From Chthonomonadales bacterium (GTDB lineage Bacteria; Armatimonadota; Chthonomonadetes; Chthonomonadales; CAJBBX01): a stretch of DNA of 47,310 nt. The notes under the pieces were generated by a model. The model saw only the letters and a program-made list of their open reading frames with translations, searched no databases and was not told where the DNA came from. This document shows positions 27,884-35,577 of the stretch, in pieces. The translations under genes and the position numbers were made by a program. The stretch covers positions 1-47,310 of the forward strand of contig JABWBA010000018.1 of NCBI GenBank assembly GCA_013360745.1. Direction: 5' to 3'. Positions within the stretch are counted from its first letter, which is position 1; every line of letters begins with the position of its first letter.

Positions 27884-29404
27884 ATGGAACTGGTAACCTC
27901 GGAGGAAATGCGCGACCTCGACCGTCGCGCGAACGATGAACTGGGCATGCCCGGCCTGCTCCTGATGGAGAACGCCGGGTCTGCGGTGGCGCGTGTCGGT
28001 ATCCGCCTCGCCACACAGATGGGACGGAACCGACTGCATGCAGTCTGCGGCGCCGGCAACAACGGCGGCGACGGCATGGCTGCCGTGCGCCACCTCCTTG
28101 CCGCCGGGTTCACAGTCACCTATGAACTGTGCGGCGATCCGTCCCGGGTGCGGGGCGACGCCGCCGTTCAGCTGCGCCTCCTGCAGGCCCTCGGAGTCAC
28201 GCCGACCGCGGAGATGCCGCGCGGCGACGCCGTCCTCATCGATGCGATTCTCGGTACCGGCGCTGCCGGACCGATCCGCCCGAACGTCGGTCGAACCATA
28301 GACGCGATCAACGACTCCCGCTGCCCCGTGGTCTCTGTGGACCTGCCGTCCGGGGTGGACGCGAACACCGGCGCCACAGCAGGCCCGGCCGTGCGAGCCG
28401 ACGAGACGGTTACGCTGGGCCTCGCCAAACCGGGCCTGTTCCTCCATCCTGGGGCGGCGCTCGTCGGACGGCTGATCGTCGACCCGATCGGTCTGGACTG
28501 GAGCGCGCTTTCCCGGTCCGATACCCTCCGTTGTTACACGACGGAGCACGCACAAACACACCTGACGCCTCGACGCTCCAACGCCCATAAGGGCGACTTC
28601 GGCCACGTTCTTGTCCTTGGAGGCTCGGCGGGGATGTCCGGCGCAGCGGCGTTGACGGGGCGGGCGGCGATAGGCTCAGGCGCCGGACTGGTCACGGTCG
28701 GCGTGCCGCTCGGGGTCCAGTCGGTCGTGGCGGGCCATGATCCCGATTACATGACCGTCGGCCTGCCGGAGATGGACGGCTGTCTTTCCGAGGCCGCAGC
28801 GGAAGCGATACGCCCATGGCTCGAACGCGCTACGGTGGTGTGCCTCGGCCCGGGCCTCGGTTCTGGCGGAAGCGCACACGCCTTCGTCCGGCGGTTCGTC
28901 GCCGAATGCCCGCTCCCGATCGTCCTCGACGCCGACGGACTGAACGCCATCGCCGGCAGACCGTCGCTCACCCGGGGGCGCGACGCCGCGACGGTCTTCA
29001 CCCCCCATCCGGGCGAGTGCGGCCGCATGCTCGGCGTCGACACAGCCCTCATCCAGGCCGATCGGATCGGCGCCGCCCGTCGTCTTGCCTCCGAGTACGG
29101 CGGCGTGGGTCTCCTCAAAGGCGCCGGGACCGTGGTGGCCAACGGACTTGTCGAGCCGGAGCATGCGACGATCATCACGACCGGAAACCCGGGCATGGCC
29201 ACGGGCGGGAGCGGCGATGTCTTGACGGGCGTGGTGGGCAGTTTGATGGCGCAGGGTCTTGCCCCCTATGACGCGGCCTGTCTCGGGGCCCATATTCATG
29301 GGCGCGCCGGTGATCTCGCTCGCGAAGCGCTCGGCTGCCACGGCGTGTCCGCCTCCGCGATCTGCGACCGGCTGCCCGGAGCGATGAAGGAGCTATCGCG
29401 ATGA
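27884..29404 (+). CDS. nnr: bifunctional NAD(P)H-hydrate epimerase / ADP-dependent hydrate dehydratase
   Basis: A 506-residue repair enzyme that converts damaged NADHX/NADPHX back to active cofactor. The N-terminal YjeF-N epimerase (about 1-210) has PGLLLMENAGSAVA, GAGNNGGDGMAAVRHL and VDLPSGVDANTG. The C-terminal ribokinase-like dehydratase (about 220-500) has HKGDFGHVLVLGGSAGMSGA, VVCLGPGLG, VLDADGLNAI, TPHPGECGRML, LLKGAGTVVA and the catalytic GGSGDVLTG (Asp). Both halves look complete. Start ATG 27884 is supported by the -10 box just upstream. Its stop overlaps the start of an FHA gene (ATGA), an unexpected pairing. Confidence 0.96.
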   Translation: MELVTSEEMRDLDRRANDELGMPGLLLMENAGSAVARVGIRLATQMGRNRLHAVCGAGNNGGDGMAAVRHLLAAGFTVTYELCGDPSRVRGDAAVQLRLLQALGVTPTAEMPRGDAVLIDAILGTGAAGPIRPNVGRTIDAINDSRCPVVSVDLPSGVDANTGATAGPAVRADETVTLGLAKPGLFLHPGAALVGRLIVDPIGLDWSALSRSDTLRCYTTEHAQTHLTPRRSNAHKGDFGHVLVLGGSAGMSGAAALTGRAAIGSGAGLVTVGVPLGVQSVVAGHDPDYMTVGLPEMDGCLSEAAAEAIRPWLERATVVCLGPGLGSGGSAHAFVRRFVAECPLPIVLDADGLNAIAGRPSLTRGRDAATVFTPHPGECGRMLGVDTALIQADRIGAARRLASEYGGVGLLKGAGTVVANGLVEPEHATIITTGNPGMATGGSGDVLTGVVGSLMAQGLAPYDAACLGAHIHGRAGDLAREALGCHGVSASAICDRLPGAMKELSR

Positions 29405-30768
29405 TTGGATCCTATGGCCGTCGCATTCGAAGCGGGGCACGGTTCCCCGCAGCGCTCGGCGGTCTGTCGGCGTTGGCCTGCGCCATTCTTGCGGTGCAAT
29501 CCCCTGCGCAGACCGGCTCCGCCCATACCTCCAGACTGACCGTCTCTGTCCCCCGACAGGGAGAGTACATGGTCCGGCTGCTGCCCGGTAAAGGCGCCAA
29601 GGACCCGCACCAGCTGCCGAGCGAGTTCCGGGAAGCTGTGACCCAGGTCGACTACGAGCTAGATCAGCTGGGTGAGGGGCCCCGAATCGCCATCGATAAC
29701 ATGAGCACCGGTGAGACCGCCATCCGGCCGCTCACCGGCGAGCGTGCCCCGAAGAAAGGCGTTCTCGATCTCAAGGAGATCGATTTCGACCATCTGCGCG
29801 AGCTTCAAGTGCGTGTCACCTATAAGGACAAGCCGGTTACCGTGGCCCGAGTGGAGCTGCGGCCCCGGGATGCCGCGCCCCGCGTCGGCGTCCTTGACCC
29901 GACGATGAAGGGAATCCTGTCCTTCAGCGATGTTCCGTTGGGCCGCTTGCGGCTGTCCGTCATCTACGGCAACAAATACACGCAGACCCAGGATGTCGAG
30001 CTAGCCAGCGCTCGGAAGCCGGGGCCGGTCGTTCTCGACGTTGCGGTCGCAAATAGGACCTCAACGGTGGATCAGGTATCGCCGTCGCCCGAACAAACGC
30101 CCGCGAAGCCCGAGCCGGCTGCGGCGGCGCCGGCAACTCCGGGCGCACCGGCACCCAGAGCGGGTTCCGGAGGGCTAACCGGCCTCCTCGGCACGGTACT
30201 GGGCCTCATCCTCGGCGCGGGCGCCATCTGGCTGCTCTATCGATGGTCGACCTCCGGTGGCATGGCGGCGACCCTGCAGAAGGCGGGCATCGAGGTGAGC
30301 GGCCCTCCGGCGGAAACGCCTGCGCCAACGCCGTGGACGCCCAACGCCCCGCCGCCGCCCGTGGTAGCGGATACCAGCCGGTGCCAGTTCTGCGGTGAAC
30401 CAAGGAACGCTGCCGGCGAGTGCGCCTGCTCGACCACGGCCTCGACAACCGCAGGCGCCGCGGCCGGAGCAGCCGGAGCGTCACCACGGCTCATCGGCAA
30501 TGGCGGGGTCTATTCGGGCTCGATCTTTGCTGTCGGCGGCGCCGTTACGATCGGCAGGGACGCTTCTTGCGGGATCGCCCTGCCACAGGATAACTCGATC
30601 AGCAGAACGCACGCGGCGCTGAGGCAAGACGCGAACGGCTTTGTGATCGAGGATCGGGGCTCGTCCAACGGGGTATTCGTCAACGGCGTCCGGATCACCG
30701 CAGAGCGCCCGCTCCGCTCCGGCGACGAGATCCAGATCGGCAACTCCCGCTTTCGGTTCGAGGCCTAG
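29401..30768 (+). CDS. membrane-anchored FHA domain protein with zinc-binding knuckle
   Basis: A 455-residue protein. Residues 1-37 are a signal peptide or anchor; about 45-215 form an extracytoplasmic domain of beta-rich, carboxypeptidase-regulatory-like strands; a Pro/Ala linker leads to one transmembrane helix (about 259-280, GLLGTVLGLILGAGAIWLLY). The cytoplasmic part has a four-Cys knuckle (Cys328, Cys331, Cys341, Cys343; CQFCGEP and GECAC) and a C-terminal FHA domain (375-455) with canonical IGRD, SRTHA and SSNGVFVNG, so phosphothreonine binding is expected. Overlaps nnr by four bases and is followed by a related FHA gene after six bases. It could carry a signal across the membrane; the ligand is unknown. 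Confidence 0.83.
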   Translation: MIGSYGRRIRSGARFPAALGGLSALACAILAVQSPAQTGSAHTSRLTVSVPRQGEYMVRLLPGKGAKDPHQLPSEFREAVTQVDYELDQLGEGPRIAIDNMSTGETAIRPLTGERAPKKGVLDLKEIDFDHLRELQVRVTYKDKPVTVARVELRPRDAAPRVGVLDPTMKGILSFSDVPLGRLRLSVIYGNKYTQTQDVELASARKPGPVVLDVAVANRTSTVDQVSPSPEQTPAKPEPAAAAPATPGAPAPRAGSGGLTGLLGTVLGLILGAGAIWLLYRWSTSGGMAATLQKAGIEVSGPPAETPAPTPWTPNAPPPPVVADTSRCQFCGEPRNAAGECACSTTASTTAGAAAGAAGASPRLIGNGGVYSGSIFAVGGAVTIGRDASCGIALPQDNSISRTHAALRQDANGFVIEDRGSSNGVFVNGVRITAERPLRSGDEIQIGNSRFRFEA

Positions 30769-30774
30769 ATTCCC

Positions 30775-32316
30775 ATGCGCTCGCGCATCGTGGTCGGCAC
30801 GCTATTCGGCGCAGCGGCGGGCTTTATCGGCTTTCTGCTGCAGGAGGCGCTGGTCCCCCACGACGCGGTTCTCTCTCCGCCCATCGGCGAAATGCTGAAG
30901 CTGGGTCTGCTGGTCGGGTTGATGCTGGGAGTCGGGATCGGCGCCATCGAGGGCGCCGTCCTCGGGAGCGCCCCGGTCCTCCTGCGGGGCTGTCTCACCG
31001 GCGCAGCGATCGGAGCCGTTGGCGGGGTCATGGGGATCTATCTCGGCGGCGCCGTCTACTCCGCTGCGTTGTTCGGTAAGGATCCCTACAACCTGGCTCA
31101 AAGCGGTCAGCTTCTCGATTTCGCGCATTCGGTACTCGCCAGGGCTCTGGGATGGACGTTACTGGGCGCTCTGCCCGGCCTCGCTGTGGGCGCGGGCACG
31201 CTCTCCCAACGTCGTGCGCTGCACGGCCTCATCGGAGGGATGCTGGGCGGCTTCATCGGCGGCTTTTCCTTCGACCTCGTCGCCACACTGTTCGCCAGCC
31301 CGCTCCAGGGCGCGATGTCTGCGGCCTCGGGCGGCCCCCAGATCATCGAGATCGGAGGGCCGAGCAGGGCGGTGGGATTCACCGCCATCGGAGCGCTCAC
31401 CGGTTTCTTCATCGGGCTCGTCGAGGAACTGCTCAAGCAGGCGTGGGTTCGCGTGCTGGTAGGCCGCAACGAGGGCAAGGACTACATCATCTCCAAACCG
31501 ATGACGATTCTGGGGCGTGATGAACGGGCCGACGTGCCCATCTTCACCGATCCCGCGCTGGCGCCGCAGCATGCCGCGATCCGACGGGACGGCAATCGAC
31601 ACACCCTGCTGGACGGCGGGTCGCCCATCGGCGTCGTTCTCAACGGACAGAGGATCTCCGAGGCGCAGTTGAAGGATGGCGACCTCATACAGCTGGGTCA
31701 GGTGAGCATCCTGTTTCGCGAGAAAGCGACGGCGGCACGGGTCGCCCCTCCCAACCGAGATCGGGCCCGCAGCCGCCCGGTCGGAGCGGGTATCCCGACT
31801 AGCGGACGGATCTGCGAGTTCTGCGGAACGCCGAAGGACGCTTCGGGCCATTGCAGCTGCACCATCCCGCCGGCCGGGCCTATCGAAGCCGGCGGGCATG
31901 CCGAAGCGGAGTCTGCTGGAAGCGGTTGGCGCCCTGCAGCCGCCCATCATCCGCTGTCCCATGGGCTTCGACAGACTCAGCCGCCAGGACAGACCAGCGG
32001 ACGCATGGATACGGTCGTCAGCATCGGCGCCCAGCGCCGCCTGTCGGCCATCGACGGCCCCTGCGCAGGTCAGACTTTCGGGCTCATTGAGCCGATCGTC
32101 AGCATCGGTCGCGAATCGGGTCGCCAGATTCGGCTTGAGGGCGATTCCGGAGTGTCGCGTCGACACGCCCGGGTCGAGCTCCGCGGGGCCACGCACGTGA
32201 TCGTCGATGAGGGGTCGGCCAACGGCACCTATGTGAACGGTGTACGGATCACAGAACAGACACTCGAACAGGGTGATATCATACAAATCGGCTCTGGTTC
32301 ATACCGATACGAGTAG
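30775..32316 (+). CDS. multipass membrane protein with two FHA domains and zinc-binding knuckle
   Basis: A 513-residue protein. Residues 1-222 are hydrophobic and glycine-rich, with about six membrane segments having GxxxG spacing (GLLVGLMLGVGIGAIEGAVLG, GLIGGMLGGFIGGF). The first FHA domain (about 240-315) has ILGRDE but APQHA where SRxHA is expected, so it has probably lost phosphothreonine binding. Next come a four-Cys knuckle (Cys347, Cys350, Cys360, Cys362; CEFCGTP and GHCSC), the same as in the preceding protein, a variable linker (363-415), and a second, canonical FHA domain (435-513: SIGRES, SRRHA, SANGTYVNG). The linker is partly encoded by an inverted pair of short DNA repeats. Second gene of the FHA/VWA/PP2C set. 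Confidence 0.83.
   Translation: MRSRIVVGTLFGAAAGFIGFLLQEALVPHDAVLSPPIGEMLKLGLLVGLMLGVGIGAIEGAVLGSAPVLLRGCLTGAAIGAVGGVMGIYLGGAVYSAALFGKDPYNLAQSGQLLDFAHSVLARALGWTLLGALPGLAVGAGTLSQRRALHGLIGGMLGGFIGGFSFDLVATLFASPLQGAMSAASGGPQIIEIGGPSRAVGFTAIGALTGFFIGLVEELLKQAWVRVLVGRNEGKDYIISKPMTILGRDERADVPIFTDPALAPQHAAIRRDGNRHTLLDGGSPIGVVLNGQRISEAQLKDGDLIQLGQVSILFREKATAARVAPPNRDRARSRPVGAGIPTSGRICEFCGTPKDASGHCSCTIPPAGPIEAGGHAEAESAGSGWRPAAAHHPLSHGLRQTQPPGQTSGRMDTVVSIGAQRRLSAIDGPCAGQTFGLIEPIVSIGRESGRQIRLEGDSGVSRRHARVELRGATHVIVDEGSANGTYVNGVRITEQTLEQGDIIQIGSGSYRYE
31876..31981. repeat. short repeat GCTTCGACAGACTCAGC with an inverted half-copy, inside an FHA gene
   Basis: GCTTCGACAGACTCAGC at 31965-31981 matches the copies at 34658 and 35760. 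An inverted partner, GGGCCTATCGAAGCC at 31876-31890, lies about 75 bases upstream; its reverse complement GGCTTCGATAGGCCC resembles the direct copy. The pair bounds the non-conserved linker of the FHA protein, which suggests that the stretch was inserted. Confidence 0.55.
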
Positions 32317-32334
32317 ACAGCGAGGTAGCACACC

Positions 32335-33681
32335 ATGGAAGACCGAACACAGCAACTGAGCGGACCGGGCGCCGGAGCGGATCCGAACCGCACGGTCATC
32401 GCGGGCGGCGCAGGCGTCGATCCCAACCGGACCGCCATGACCGGATCCGGTTCCGCGCTCGAGGCGCTGATCGCGCCGGGCAACCGCTACGCCCTGGCGT
32501 CAGGCGCCTCCAGAGAACACCTGCTGTTGATGCTCCGCGCATCGGGGAACACCCTCGGACGGCGGATGCCGTTGAACCTCTCGCTGGTCATCGACCGCTC
32601 CGGTTCGATGGAGGGCGAGCCGCTGGACTACCTGAAACGGGCCTGCGGATACGTGGTGGATCTCCTGGAGCCGTCCGACATCCTCTCGATCGTCACGTTC
32701 GAGGAGCAGGTCGAGGTTGTCATGCCAGCCCGCCGCGTCGTCAATAAGGCGCTGATCAAGGAGCACATCGCCCGCATCAAGTCCGGCAATACGACCAACC
32801 TGTACGACGGCCTGATCACCGGCTGCATGCAGGTCGCGGGTGTTGCCGCGGCCGGCTATCTCAATCGGGTTCTCCTCCTCACCGACGGCGAGCCGACGGC
32901 GGGCATCAAGGACTTCTCGACGATCGTACAACAGGTCGCGCAGCAACGTCAGGCGGGCATCTCCGTGACGGCTCTCGGCTTCGGCAGCGACTACAACGAG
33001 GAGCTGATGGCGGGCATCGCGCGGCGAAGCGGCGGCAACTACTACTACATCACCCAGCCGAGTCTCATCCCGGAGGTGTTTCGGCAGGAGCTGGAATCGT
33101 TGATGACCATCACCGCCCGGAACGTGCGCGTTCGGATGACGTTCCCTCGCGGTGTTCGATGCCGGTATATCTACGGAACCGCGTCGCCGGCGTTCGGCGC
33201 CCGATCCGTCGAGTACGCGCTAGCCGATATCGAGCGAGGGAACGCCGTGGCATCGCTCTCCGAATGGGAGTTCGACTCGCATATCCCGGGCGTCTATCGG
33301 TTCGCGAAAGTCGAGGTCTCCTATGACGACGTCGTGACAGGACGCTCTGAGGCGCTGCCGGCGGATGCCGTCATCGAGTTCACTGCGGACCGCAGACTGA
33401 TCGACACGCACCGGGATCCCGTCGTCCAGCGAGAGCTAGAGGTCCATCTTGCCTCACGGAACCTGGAGAAGACGATGATGGGTATGCGGACTCAGCAGCT
33501 CACCGCCGTCGGAGCGATTCAGGAGCTGGAACGAACTCGAGCGATCCTGGCGAGCGCCGGCCGATCGGATCAAGCGCAGGAAGTCACGCAGGCGATGGAC
33601 GCGCTCAGGCACGGCGGCGAGGCCGACAAGACGCTGATCGGGACGATCTACGGACTCGATCAGGGTAAACGAAAGGAGTAG
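32335..33681 (+). CDS. VWA domain protein with N-terminal DPNRT motifs
   Basis: A 448-residue cytoplasmic protein without a signal peptide. Residues 1-40 hold three Thr motifs: EDRTQQL (Thr5), ADPNRTVI (Thr20) and VDPNRTAM (Thr33). The VWA domain (about 78-260) has a complete MIDAS metal site: VIDRSGSM near residue 85, the later TTNLYDGL threonine and LLLTDGEPT. The C-terminal 190 residues form the beta-rich and helical extension seen in MoxR-linked and TerY-like VWA proteins. It sits between FHA genes and before a PP2C gene. A scaffold role in phosphorylation signalling is inferred; the N-terminal Thr motifs may be phosphorylated and read by the neighbouring FHA domains. Confidence 0.87.
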   Translation: MEDRTQQLSGPGAGADPNRTVIAGGAGVDPNRTAMTGSGSALEALIAPGNRYALASGASREHLLLMLRASGNTLGRRMPLNLSLVIDRSGSMEGEPLDYLKRACGYVVDLLEPSDILSIVTFEEQVEVVMPARRVVNKALIKEHIARIKSGNTTNLYDGLITGCMQVAGVAAAGYLNRVLLLTDGEPTAGIKDFSTIVQQVAQQRQAGISVTALGFGSDYNEELMAGIARRSGGNYYYITQPSLIPEVFRQELESLMTITARNVRVRMTFPRGVRCRYIYGTASPAFGARSVEYALADIERGNAVASLSEWEFDSHIPGVYRFAKVEVSYDDVVTGRSEALPADAVIEFTADRRLIDTHRDPVVQRELEVHLASRNLEKTMMGMRTQQLTAVGAIQELERTRAILASAGRSDQAQEVTQAMDALRHGGEADKTLIGTIYGLDQGKRKE

Positions 33682-33691
33682 GTCCCCGGCG

Positions 33692-34717
33692 ATGGAGCTA
33701 TCTGATACCACACAGGCGCTGAACGATCGTATCACCGTCGGGGTCCCCGCGACCGATCCCGACCGTACTCAGATGAGCAGCGTGATCGAATGTCCCGTGT
33801 GCCGCACGCAAAATGGGGGCTGTGAGATCTACTGCTCCGAGTGCGGCTTCCTGCTTGCGTCGACACCGGGCGCCCCGACCGAAGAGCAGGCCGCAGAGAG
33901 CGGATACGGACTGATCGAGGATCGAACGGGCCGGCGGTTCCCTCTCGTCGTCGGCGAGAACCTCGTTGGGCGGGAGAACGCCGAGATCCTGCTGATGGAT
34001 GGGACTGTTTCCCGCCGACATGCACTACTCACGCTCGGCGACACGGGGCTCACGGTAACTGACCTTGCCAGCACGAACGGCACACAGATCGACGGCGTCC
34101 CCGTCTCGCCCCAGACGCCGGTGGCCGTCGCAGGCGGCAGCGTTCTTCGCTTTGGTCAGGTTACGCTGCGCCTCGAAGCGCTCGGTGGGGCGCTCCCATC
34201 CGAACCGACCATGGCCATAACGATCGAGCAGCGCGTCGCCGCAGCGGCGGAATCGGCCGCTGCTCCGATCGCGATACTCCGCTCGAACGGCGCCCAGTCC
34301 GAGGACATCGCGGTGCGCCGTACGGCGACCTCAATCGGACGGAGACCCCAGAACGACCATGTGATCGCGGGTGATCCCTTCGTGTCGGGCGCCCATGCTC
34401 GAGTCGAAGTCGTCGACGGAACCATCACGCTTACCGACGTCGGCAGCACCAACGGCACGTTCGTCAACGGCGCCCGTCTTCAGGCCCATCAACCGTGCAC
34501 TCTGGCGGACGGCGACGAAATCCAGATAGGGAAGGGCCTCTATACCCTTGAGCGGAACGTCGTTTCCGAGCCAACCGACGACGCGCAGAAGCTCGAATGG
34601 GACGAAGCCGCGGCAGAGCGCCAACCGCCTCCAGCGGACTCCGCGTCGTCTGGCTCAGCTTCGACAAGCTCAGCTGACGGGGTTGATGATGGACGAACGG
34701 AGGCGAGCCCTCTGTGA
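33692..34717 (+). CDS. zinc-ribbon protein with two FHA domains
   Basis: A 341-residue soluble protein. The N-terminus has SDTTQAL and TDPDRTQM (Thr26), like the Thr motifs of the VWA protein. A zinc-ribbon-like cysteine cluster follows (CPVCR, then CEIYCSECG: Cys34, Cys37, Cys44, Cys48, Cys51). The first FHA domain (about 80-165) has LVGRE, SRRHA and STNGTQIDG. The second (about 205-285) has SIGRRP, SGAHA and STNGTFVNG. The last 50 residues are acidic, Ser/Pro-rich and disordered, partly encoded by a short DNA repeat. AAAGGAG for this gene overlaps the VWA stop. Its stop overlaps the PP2C start (GTGA). Likely an adaptor for the phosphatase and an unseen kinase. Confidence 0.85.
   Translation: MELSDTTQALNDRITVGVPATDPDRTQMSSVIECPVCRTQNGGCEIYCSECGFLLASTPGAPTEEQAAESGYGLIEDRTGRRFPLVVGENLVGRENAEILLMDGTVSRRHALLTLGDTGLTVTDLASTNGTQIDGVPVSPQTPVAVAGGSVLRFGQVTLRLEALGGALPSEPTMAITIEQRVAAAAESAAAPIAILRSNGAQSEDIAVRRTATSIGRRPQNDHVIAGDPFVSGAHARVEVVDGTITLTDVGSTNGTFVNGARLQAHQPCTLADGDEIQIGKGLYTLERNVVSEPTDDAQKLEWDEAAAERQPPPADSASSGSASTSSADGVDDGRTEASPL
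34658..34674. repeat. short repeat GCTTCGACAAGCTCAGC, copy in FHA gene
   Basis: This copy contains the palindrome AGCTT-CGAC-AAGCT and can form a small hairpin. It encodes Ala-Ser-Thr-Ser-Ser-Ala in the disordered tail of the double-FHA protein. It is the same DNA word as at 31965 and 35760 but read in a different frame, so the conservation is at DNA level. Confidence 0.6.
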
Positions 34718-35577
34718 TCGAGGAACTCGACGAGACAACAGCGCGCTTCGACATCCAGGAGCTCGTTCTCGGCTGGCGTCGTCTCAACGGCGAACCGCCC
34801 CGGCTGAGGTTGACGACCCGTGTCGGGTTGAAGTCCGATCTGGGATGCGTACGGGATAACAACGAGGATAAGGCGGAGTTCTACGAACCGATCGACCCGC
34901 CGACCCTCGCGGCGCGTGGCTCGGTCTATTGCGTCGCAGACGGTATGGGAGGCCATGCCGCAGGTCAGATCGCGTCCGAACTCGCGGTGAAGAGCGCGAT
35001 CGCGGCCTATTATTCGGACATGGACAATACGCCGGACGTGGCGATGGTCCAGGCCGTGCGGCAGGCGAACGATACCGTTCGTGAGGCCGCGATTGAAGCT
35101 CCGGAGCGTGCCGGCATGGGCACCACCTTCACCGCGCTCTCGCTGGTGCAGGGTCACGCCTTGGTCACGCATCTGGGCGATTCCCGCGCGTATCTCCTGC
35201 GCGACGGCGAGCTGCGGCAAATCACCACGGACCACACCTGGGTTGAAGAGCAGGTTCAGAACGGCGTGATGACCCGGGCACAGGCAGAGTCCTCTCCCTA
35301 TCGCAACATCATCACCCGCTGCATCGGGACGGAGCCGACCATCGATGTGGATTCCTTCGCCGTCGACACCCGAACGGGCGATATCTGGCTGCTGTGCAGC
35401 GACGGTCTGACGGGCCACGTCGAGGACGACGAGATCCAGAGCATCGTCGACGGGGCAGGCCCTTCTGAGGCCTGTCGCCAGCTCATCACCCTTGCCTGCG
35501 CTCGCGGCGGCTCCGACAACGTGACGGCGCTGATCGTGAAGATCGAGGATATGGAGACGGTCGAGGTTGCCGCCTGA
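34714..35577 (+). CDS. PP2C-family serine/threonine phosphatase (Stp/PrpC-like)
   Basis: A 287-residue metal-dependent phosphatase that removes phosphate from Ser and Thr. The motifs follow in order: DLGCVRDNNEDKAEF, YCVADGMGGHAAGQIAS (the metal-binding DGMGG), GTTFTALSL, HLGDSRAYLLRDGELRQIT, DHTWVEEQV, LLCSDGLTGHVEDDE and GGSDNVTALIV. An N-terminal extension of 38 residues precedes the domain. Start is GTG, overlapping the upstream FHA gene stop. No kinase gene is in the window; such phosphatases usually pair with a Hanks-type kinase. With the FHA and VWA proteins it forms a phospho-signalling set. Confidence 0.93.
   Translation: MIEELDETTARFDIQELVLGWRRLNGEPPRLRLTTRVGLKSDLGCVRDNNEDKAEFYEPIDPPTLAARGSVYCVADGMGGHAAGQIASELAVKSAIAAYYSDMDNTPDVAMVQAVRQANDTVREAAIEAPERAGMGTTFTALSLVQGHALVTHLGDSRAYLLRDGELRQITTDHTWVEEQVQNGVMTRAQAESSPYRNIITRCIGTEPTIDVDSFAVDTRTGDIWLLCSDGLTGHVEDDEIQSIVDGAGPSEACRQLITLACARGGSDNVTALIVKIEDMETVEVAA

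Follow-up and report, generated by a model that had tools for sequence, protein, structure and literature searches.

In Sulfolobus, a module that regulates the archaellum comprises ArnA (a zinc finger-FHA protein), ArnB (a VWA protein), the kinases ArnC and ArnD, and the phosphatase PP2A (PMC6509490, PMC12852372). ArnC phosphorylates threonines of the ArnB helix bundle, the FHA domain of ArnA binds them, and PP2A opposes the reaction (PMC6509490, PMC12852372, PMC7472852). The ArnB-like architecture is widespread and mostly not tied to multi-site phosphorylation (PMC12852372, the 2026 ArnAB structure paper). Here, we analyzed a stretch of 47,310 nucleotides, termed the window, from a Chthonomonadales bacterium (contig JABWBA010000018.1, our contig C99; genome of 3.32 Mb, 97% complete), whose named near relatives are metagenome-assembled genomes of Chthonomonadales, Armatimonadota. 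The window carries a cassette of five genes encoding the membrane FHA proteins FHA1 and FHA2m, a VWA protein, the adaptor FHA3z and a PP2C phosphatase. We consider it reasonably probable that the cassette supplies most of a six-protein ArnA/ArnB-like threonine-phosphorylation switch, extended by two membrane FHA proteins and served by a kinase encoded on another contig.

The original prediction of five consecutive FHA/FHA/VWA/FHA/PP2C genes was borne out by the open reading frames and by Pfam, with domains in gene order of FHA, two FHA, VWA, two FHA and PP2C at scores far above the Pfam cut-offs. The spacing was operon-like at -4, 6, 18, 10 and -4 bases, the first value being the overlap between the upstream nnrD-like gene and FHA1. 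The features are as follows.

29401-30768, + strand: FHA1, with a signal peptide, an extracytoplasmic beta domain, one transmembrane segment, a Cys4 motif and an FHA domain
29530-30045, + strand: predicted extracytoplasmic beta-rich domain of FHA1 (residues 44-215; AlphaFold2, mostly pLDDT >90)
30544-30741, + strand: FHA domain of FHA1, phosphothreonine-pocket residues intact (GR, SRxH, SSNG)
30775-32316, + strand: FHA2m, with an N-terminal multipass membrane domain, a degenerate FHA domain, a Cys4 motif and an intact FHA domain
31507-31698, + strand: first FHA domain of FHA2m, pocket Ser and Asn missing (ALAPQHA / GGSPIGV)
32098-32292, + strand: second FHA domain of FHA2m, pocket intact
32335-33681, + strand: VWA protein, with a disordered Thr tail, a VWA domain (metal ion-dependent adhesion site DxSxS), a beta sandwich and a C-terminal helix bundle
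32335-32448, + strand: disordered N-terminal tail of the VWA protein (residues 1-38; pLDDT <50)
33418-33663, + strand: C-terminal helix bundle of the VWA protein (residues 362-443)
33692-34717, + strand: FHA3z, with a Thr tail, a zinc ribbon (C34, C37, C48 and C51 invariant) and two FHA domains
33962-34156, + strand: first FHA domain of FHA3z
34328-34531, + strand: second FHA domain of FHA3z
34714-35577, + strand: PP2C phosphatase of the Stp1/IreP family (NF033484, 242 bits against a cut-off of 230)
27884-29404 of the window: nnrD-like gene (YjeF_N plus Carb_kinase), a conserved upstream neighbour with a 4-base overlap with FHA1

The VWA protein was modelled with AlphaFold2 from an alignment of 14 sequences (pLDDT 84), and the model showed the three-domain build of ArnB, namely a VWA domain, a beta sandwich and a C-terminal helix bundle. 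Foldseek comparison with the PDB returned ArnB of the ArnAB complex as the best match (8s05_A, TM-score of 0.79 on the target), followed by the Catenulispora VWA protein 4fx5 and the ArnB paralog 5a8j, and the sequence profile matched ArnB over profile positions 86-430 (E = 3e-15). In the helix bundle, T380, T386, T401 and T433 were present in all 14 sequences and T437 in 13; in ArnB, it is the corresponding region on which the kinase acts (PMC12852372). The disordered tail kept T5 in 12 of the 14 sequences and T33 in 13. The motif T-x-[MILVF]-[GAS], picked after inspection of the tails, occurred 29 times in 39 VWA tails compared with 7.1 in shuffles, and 41 times in FHA3z tails compared with 9.8. 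Conservation of the gene set, together with conserved and enriched Thr motifs in the VWA N-terminal tail, to which the original prediction had pointed, upheld the proposal of a Ser/Thr phospho-signalling set in which the VWA protein probably acts as scaffold and the FHA proteins as readers.

A Hanks-type kinase was found on contig C98 (C98:3339-5195, also L050:3339-5195); it is one of only two PF00069 kinases in the genome and has one predicted transmembrane segment and TPRs but no PASTA domain. In relatives, a Hanks kinase of about 600 residues (kinase domain, transmembrane segment and, in several, TPRs) lies directly 3' of PP2C, and this adjacency holds in most relatives with readable contigs. 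The C98 kinase matched the three nearest relatives best (54-56%), and in the kinase tree the relocated copies nested among PP2C-adjacent copies. Where a glycine-rich loop would be expected, all 36 distinct kinase orthologs have [AG]RSND[IV]V[YWF]E[AG] (RSNDIVYEA in the C98 copy), a signature absent from the PASTA kinase of the genome (contig C31). The gene order in G004 and G009 is PP2C, kinase, gene X, a membrane protein on the minus strand, a response regulator and a GAF kinase, gene X not being detected in G009; in the window genome and its two nearest relatives (G000, G007 and G010), AcrB precedes the kinase and the same genes follow it, gene X included. The synteny break thus falls exactly at the junction between PP2C and the kinase. 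By best match, tree, signature and synteny, the C98 kinase is the ortholog of the PP2C-adjacent kinases, and the original description of the cassette as lacking a kinase therefore did not hold for the system as a whole. A complete system can thus look kinase-less when a single contig is viewed. Dispersed operons have been noted in Chthonomonas calidirosea (PMC4959169).

With GxGxxG replaced by a near-invariant ARSNDIVYEA and VAIK, HRD and DFG kept, the C98 kinase and its orthologs form an unusual kinase subfamily. A fast-evolving gene with no Pfam match lies 3' of the kinase in several genomes (L050:5189-6265; L055:15448-16515) and is possibly a further component, and a gene for the RNA 2'-phosphotransferase KptA/Tpt1 stands between PP2C and the kinase in two loci (L055:12917-13630 and L058:12570-13295).

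We classified 61 genomes by hand for the VWA ortholog and the position of the kinase. The VWA ortholog was present in 48; of these, 28 had the kinase on the same contig at a distance of up to about 5 kb, 13 had it elsewhere, and 7 could not be called owing to contig ends or short contigs. Over a sample of 201 Armatimonadota genomes, 116 had both the VWA protein and the kinase, 3 the VWA protein only, 13 the kinase only and 69 neither (Fisher p = 2e-36, a value that overstates independence because the sampled genomes are related). The order nnrD-FHA1-FHA2m-VWA-FHA3z-PP2C was found throughout Chthonomonadales, and the core VWA-FHA3z-PP2C was retained in other Armatimonadota families. Since the order is kept in dozens of genomes, it is not due to chance. 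The search proposed originally, for the same order and a co-occurring kinase in other genomes, thus returned both, the kinase being the TPR kinase.

The cassette holds all five FHA domains detected in the genome and, with the C98 kinase, one of its two kinases. With no FHA domain detected outside the set, the cell would lose all its FHA readers if three genes were deleted. In the window sequence, four of these domains retain the phosphothreonine-pocket residues Arg, Ser and Asn, the exception being the first of FHA2m. Since the pocket Ser and Asn of this domain are missing, as in most relatives whose first FHA domain was extracted, it has probably lost phosphothreonine binding; the multipass double-FHA protein of the original prediction does carry two FHA domains, with this limit on the first. 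FHA1 has the single membrane pass predicted for it and is more than a single-pass protein, with its signal peptide, outer beta domain and Cys4 motif. Its FHA domain has GarA, OdhI and FhaA as nearest PDB folds. The outer domain had no evident fold match in the PDB, and its fold gave no clue because the top 50 PDB matches all fall on the FHA domain. The PP2C tail has a conserved motif of its own, E-x-T-A-[KR]-[FL], distinct from that of the VWA and FHA3z tails; its form here, ETTARF, resembles the ETT motif of GarA. In some Armatimonadota families, the double-FHA adaptor carries an N-terminal DnaJ fusion (FHA3z orthologs L036, L040 and L070).

The system shares with Sulfolobus ArnAB the VWA, beta sandwich and helix bundle, a zinc-ribbon and FHA partner encoded with the VWA protein, genes for a Hanks kinase and a Ser/Thr phosphatase, and conserved threonines in the C-terminal bundle. 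It differs in being bacterial, in having PP2C instead of PP2A, and in encoding the phosphatase and, in relatives, the kinase in the same gene run. The soluble partner has two FHA domains, two membrane FHA proteins are added, the VWA protein has an extra N-terminal Thr tail, and the kinase carries a transmembrane segment and TPRs, whereas the Sulfolobus kinase carries an OB fold and TPRs. We infer phosphorylation, FHA binding and membrane recruitment as follows. The membrane-anchored kinase, with its TPRs outside the cytoplasm, would phosphorylate the VWA protein at threonines of its N-terminal tail and of its helix bundle, with the FHA3z and PP2C tails as probable further targets. Soluble FHA3z would dock on the VWA protein once it is phosphorylated, in the way that ArnA recognizes phospho-ArnB. 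The same phosphothreonine motifs would be captured by the intact FHA domains of FHA1 and FHA2m, drawing the complex to the membrane, and there the outer domain of FHA1 may serve as a second input. PP2C would strip the phosphates and reset the switch. Control of gene expression or of a surface function, as for ArnAB, is our best guess for the output.

Several points weigh against this switch. The three domains of ArnB recur in YfbK and 4fx5, VWA proteins that have no known FHA partner (PMC12852372), and the fold alone is therefore no proof of mechanism. FHA3z of Armatimonadota matched ArnA at 1.6e-16 and many other FHA proteins about equally well or better. None of the three glycines of that loop is left in the kinase, whose activity is for that reason not assured. 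In f14, a large family of Armatimonadota, the kinase is non-adjacent, and FHA3z and PP2C were not 3' of the VWA gene in the two loci read. Lastly, the PP2C is a member of the Stp1 family, whose enzymes usually pair with PASTA kinases, one of which this genome encodes.

This last point leads to a regulator of wall synthesis or division of the mycobacterial kind (FhaA/FhaB, PstP, PknA/PknB), in which the PP2C would mainly serve the PASTA kinase on contig C31 and the FHA proteins would read the targets of that kinase. The PP2C score above the Stp1/IreP cut-off, the PASTA kinase itself, the FHA folds nearest to GarA, OdhI and FhaA, and the DacA gene directly 3' of PP2C in the window are consistent with such a regulator. 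The mycobacterial FhaA/FhaB-PstP-PknA/PknB operon includes RodA and penicillin-binding protein genes, and like GarA/OdhI it shares with the cassette system FHA domains, a PP2C of the Stp1/PstP type and a Hanks kinase. The kinase of that operon is a PASTA kinase, however, whereas the kinase linked to the cassette is a TPR kinase without PASTA domains; to our knowledge, the mycobacterial clusters have no VWA gene. Among the loci read, DacA followed PP2C only in the window genome and its two nearest relatives, which also removes the original case for an envelope link through the carboxypeptidase. We regard this explanation as unlikely.

A triad of the TerY-P type, serving metal stress or phage defence, seems quite improbable. 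By definition, it comprises a VWA protein, a PP2C and a kinase fused C-terminally to a zinc ribbon or OB fold, with no FHA protein and a context of defence and tellurite (PMC11090510). The cassette system shares the VWA protein, PP2C and kinase, encoded together in relatives, but FHA proteins are central to it, its kinase has a transmembrane segment and TPRs and no C-terminal zinc ribbon or OB fold, the VWA protein carries the beta sandwich and helix bundle of ArnB, and the cassette is conserved across genera of the phylum. PADLOC gave no match for the VWA or FHA proteins, on which basis a defence triad was rejected, and its kinase matches were to broad kinase models.

A complex without a dedicated kinase, in which the FHA, VWA and PP2C proteins use any cellular kinase or other signals, fits the window alone, where no kinase stands beside the cassette and DacA follows PP2C. 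The adjacency of kinase and PP2C in most relatives with readable contigs, the ortholog kept in this genome, the co-occurrence across the phylum and the synteny break argue against it; it was rejected on the adjacency and the break and is very improbable. The threonine-phosphorylation circuit of the type VI secretion system (PpkA/PppA/Fha) has the same enzyme classes and FHA logic (kinase, PP2C and FHA reader; PMC3953482) and a VWA domain within PpkA (PMC1262709), but it is tied to that secretion system, the cassette VWA is a separate protein, and the sheath protein TssC/VipB was not found in the 97% complete genome, for which reason this link was rejected as having almost no chance of being correct.

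For the ArnA/ArnB-like switch, the search beyond Armatimonadota covered plasmids (tblastn). Deinococcus plasmids (L120 and L123) carry the order VWA, kinase, zinc-ribbon/FHA protein and PP2C, and cyanobacterial plasmids (L121, L122 and L124; hosts Gloeothece, Nostoc and Trichormus) carry VWA, FHA and PP2C, followed by kinases in L122 and L124; no kinase was seen in the Trichormus stretch. Their VWA proteins are homologous to that of the cassette over 374 columns (99.4%), and their FHA protein had ArnA as best PDB match, spanning zinc finger and FHA. The Gloeothece, Nostoc and Deinococcus clusters share with the cassette system four protein kinds in adjacent genes and tails with Thr motifs. They differ in that the Thr tail of the VWA protein is C-terminal (repeats KTVKMG/KTLKIG) instead of N-terminal, the adaptor has a single FHA domain, and no membrane FHA1 or FHA2m was seen. 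Unlike in the cassette system, the PP2C has a long N-terminal part and the kinases have a zinc ribbon or FHA domain and a normal glycine-rich loop. Sequence identity of the VWA protein does not by itself point to such clusters, because several close plasmid matches (Picosynechococcus, D. ficus, Meiothermus, KNUC1210 and D. deserti) had no FHA, PP2C or kinase neighbours.

We judge it an even chance that FHA-VWA switches of the ArnA/ArnB type are widespread in bacteria, with Armatimonadota, Cyanobacteriota and Deinococcota encoding them as one gene set that includes a dedicated kinase and phosphatase, and that the Armatimonadota form is linked outward by three proteins, namely a multipass FHA protein, a sensor-FHA protein and an extracytoplasmic-TPR kinase with the RSNDIVYEA loop. 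The complex had been proposed as possibly undescribed; its core has a counterpart in Sulfolobus, while in the open-access literature searched, no description was found of the bacterial VWA/FHA/PP2C/kinase set or of the membrane-FHA form. These loci provide bacterial ArnB-like cases with reader, kinase and phosphatase encoded together, and the versions on plasmids of Cyanobacteria and Deinococcus could serve for tests of mechanism. Two of the cyanobacterial plasmid clusters (L121 and L122) adjoin genes of the ARC6/PARC6 family and serine-hydrolase genes.

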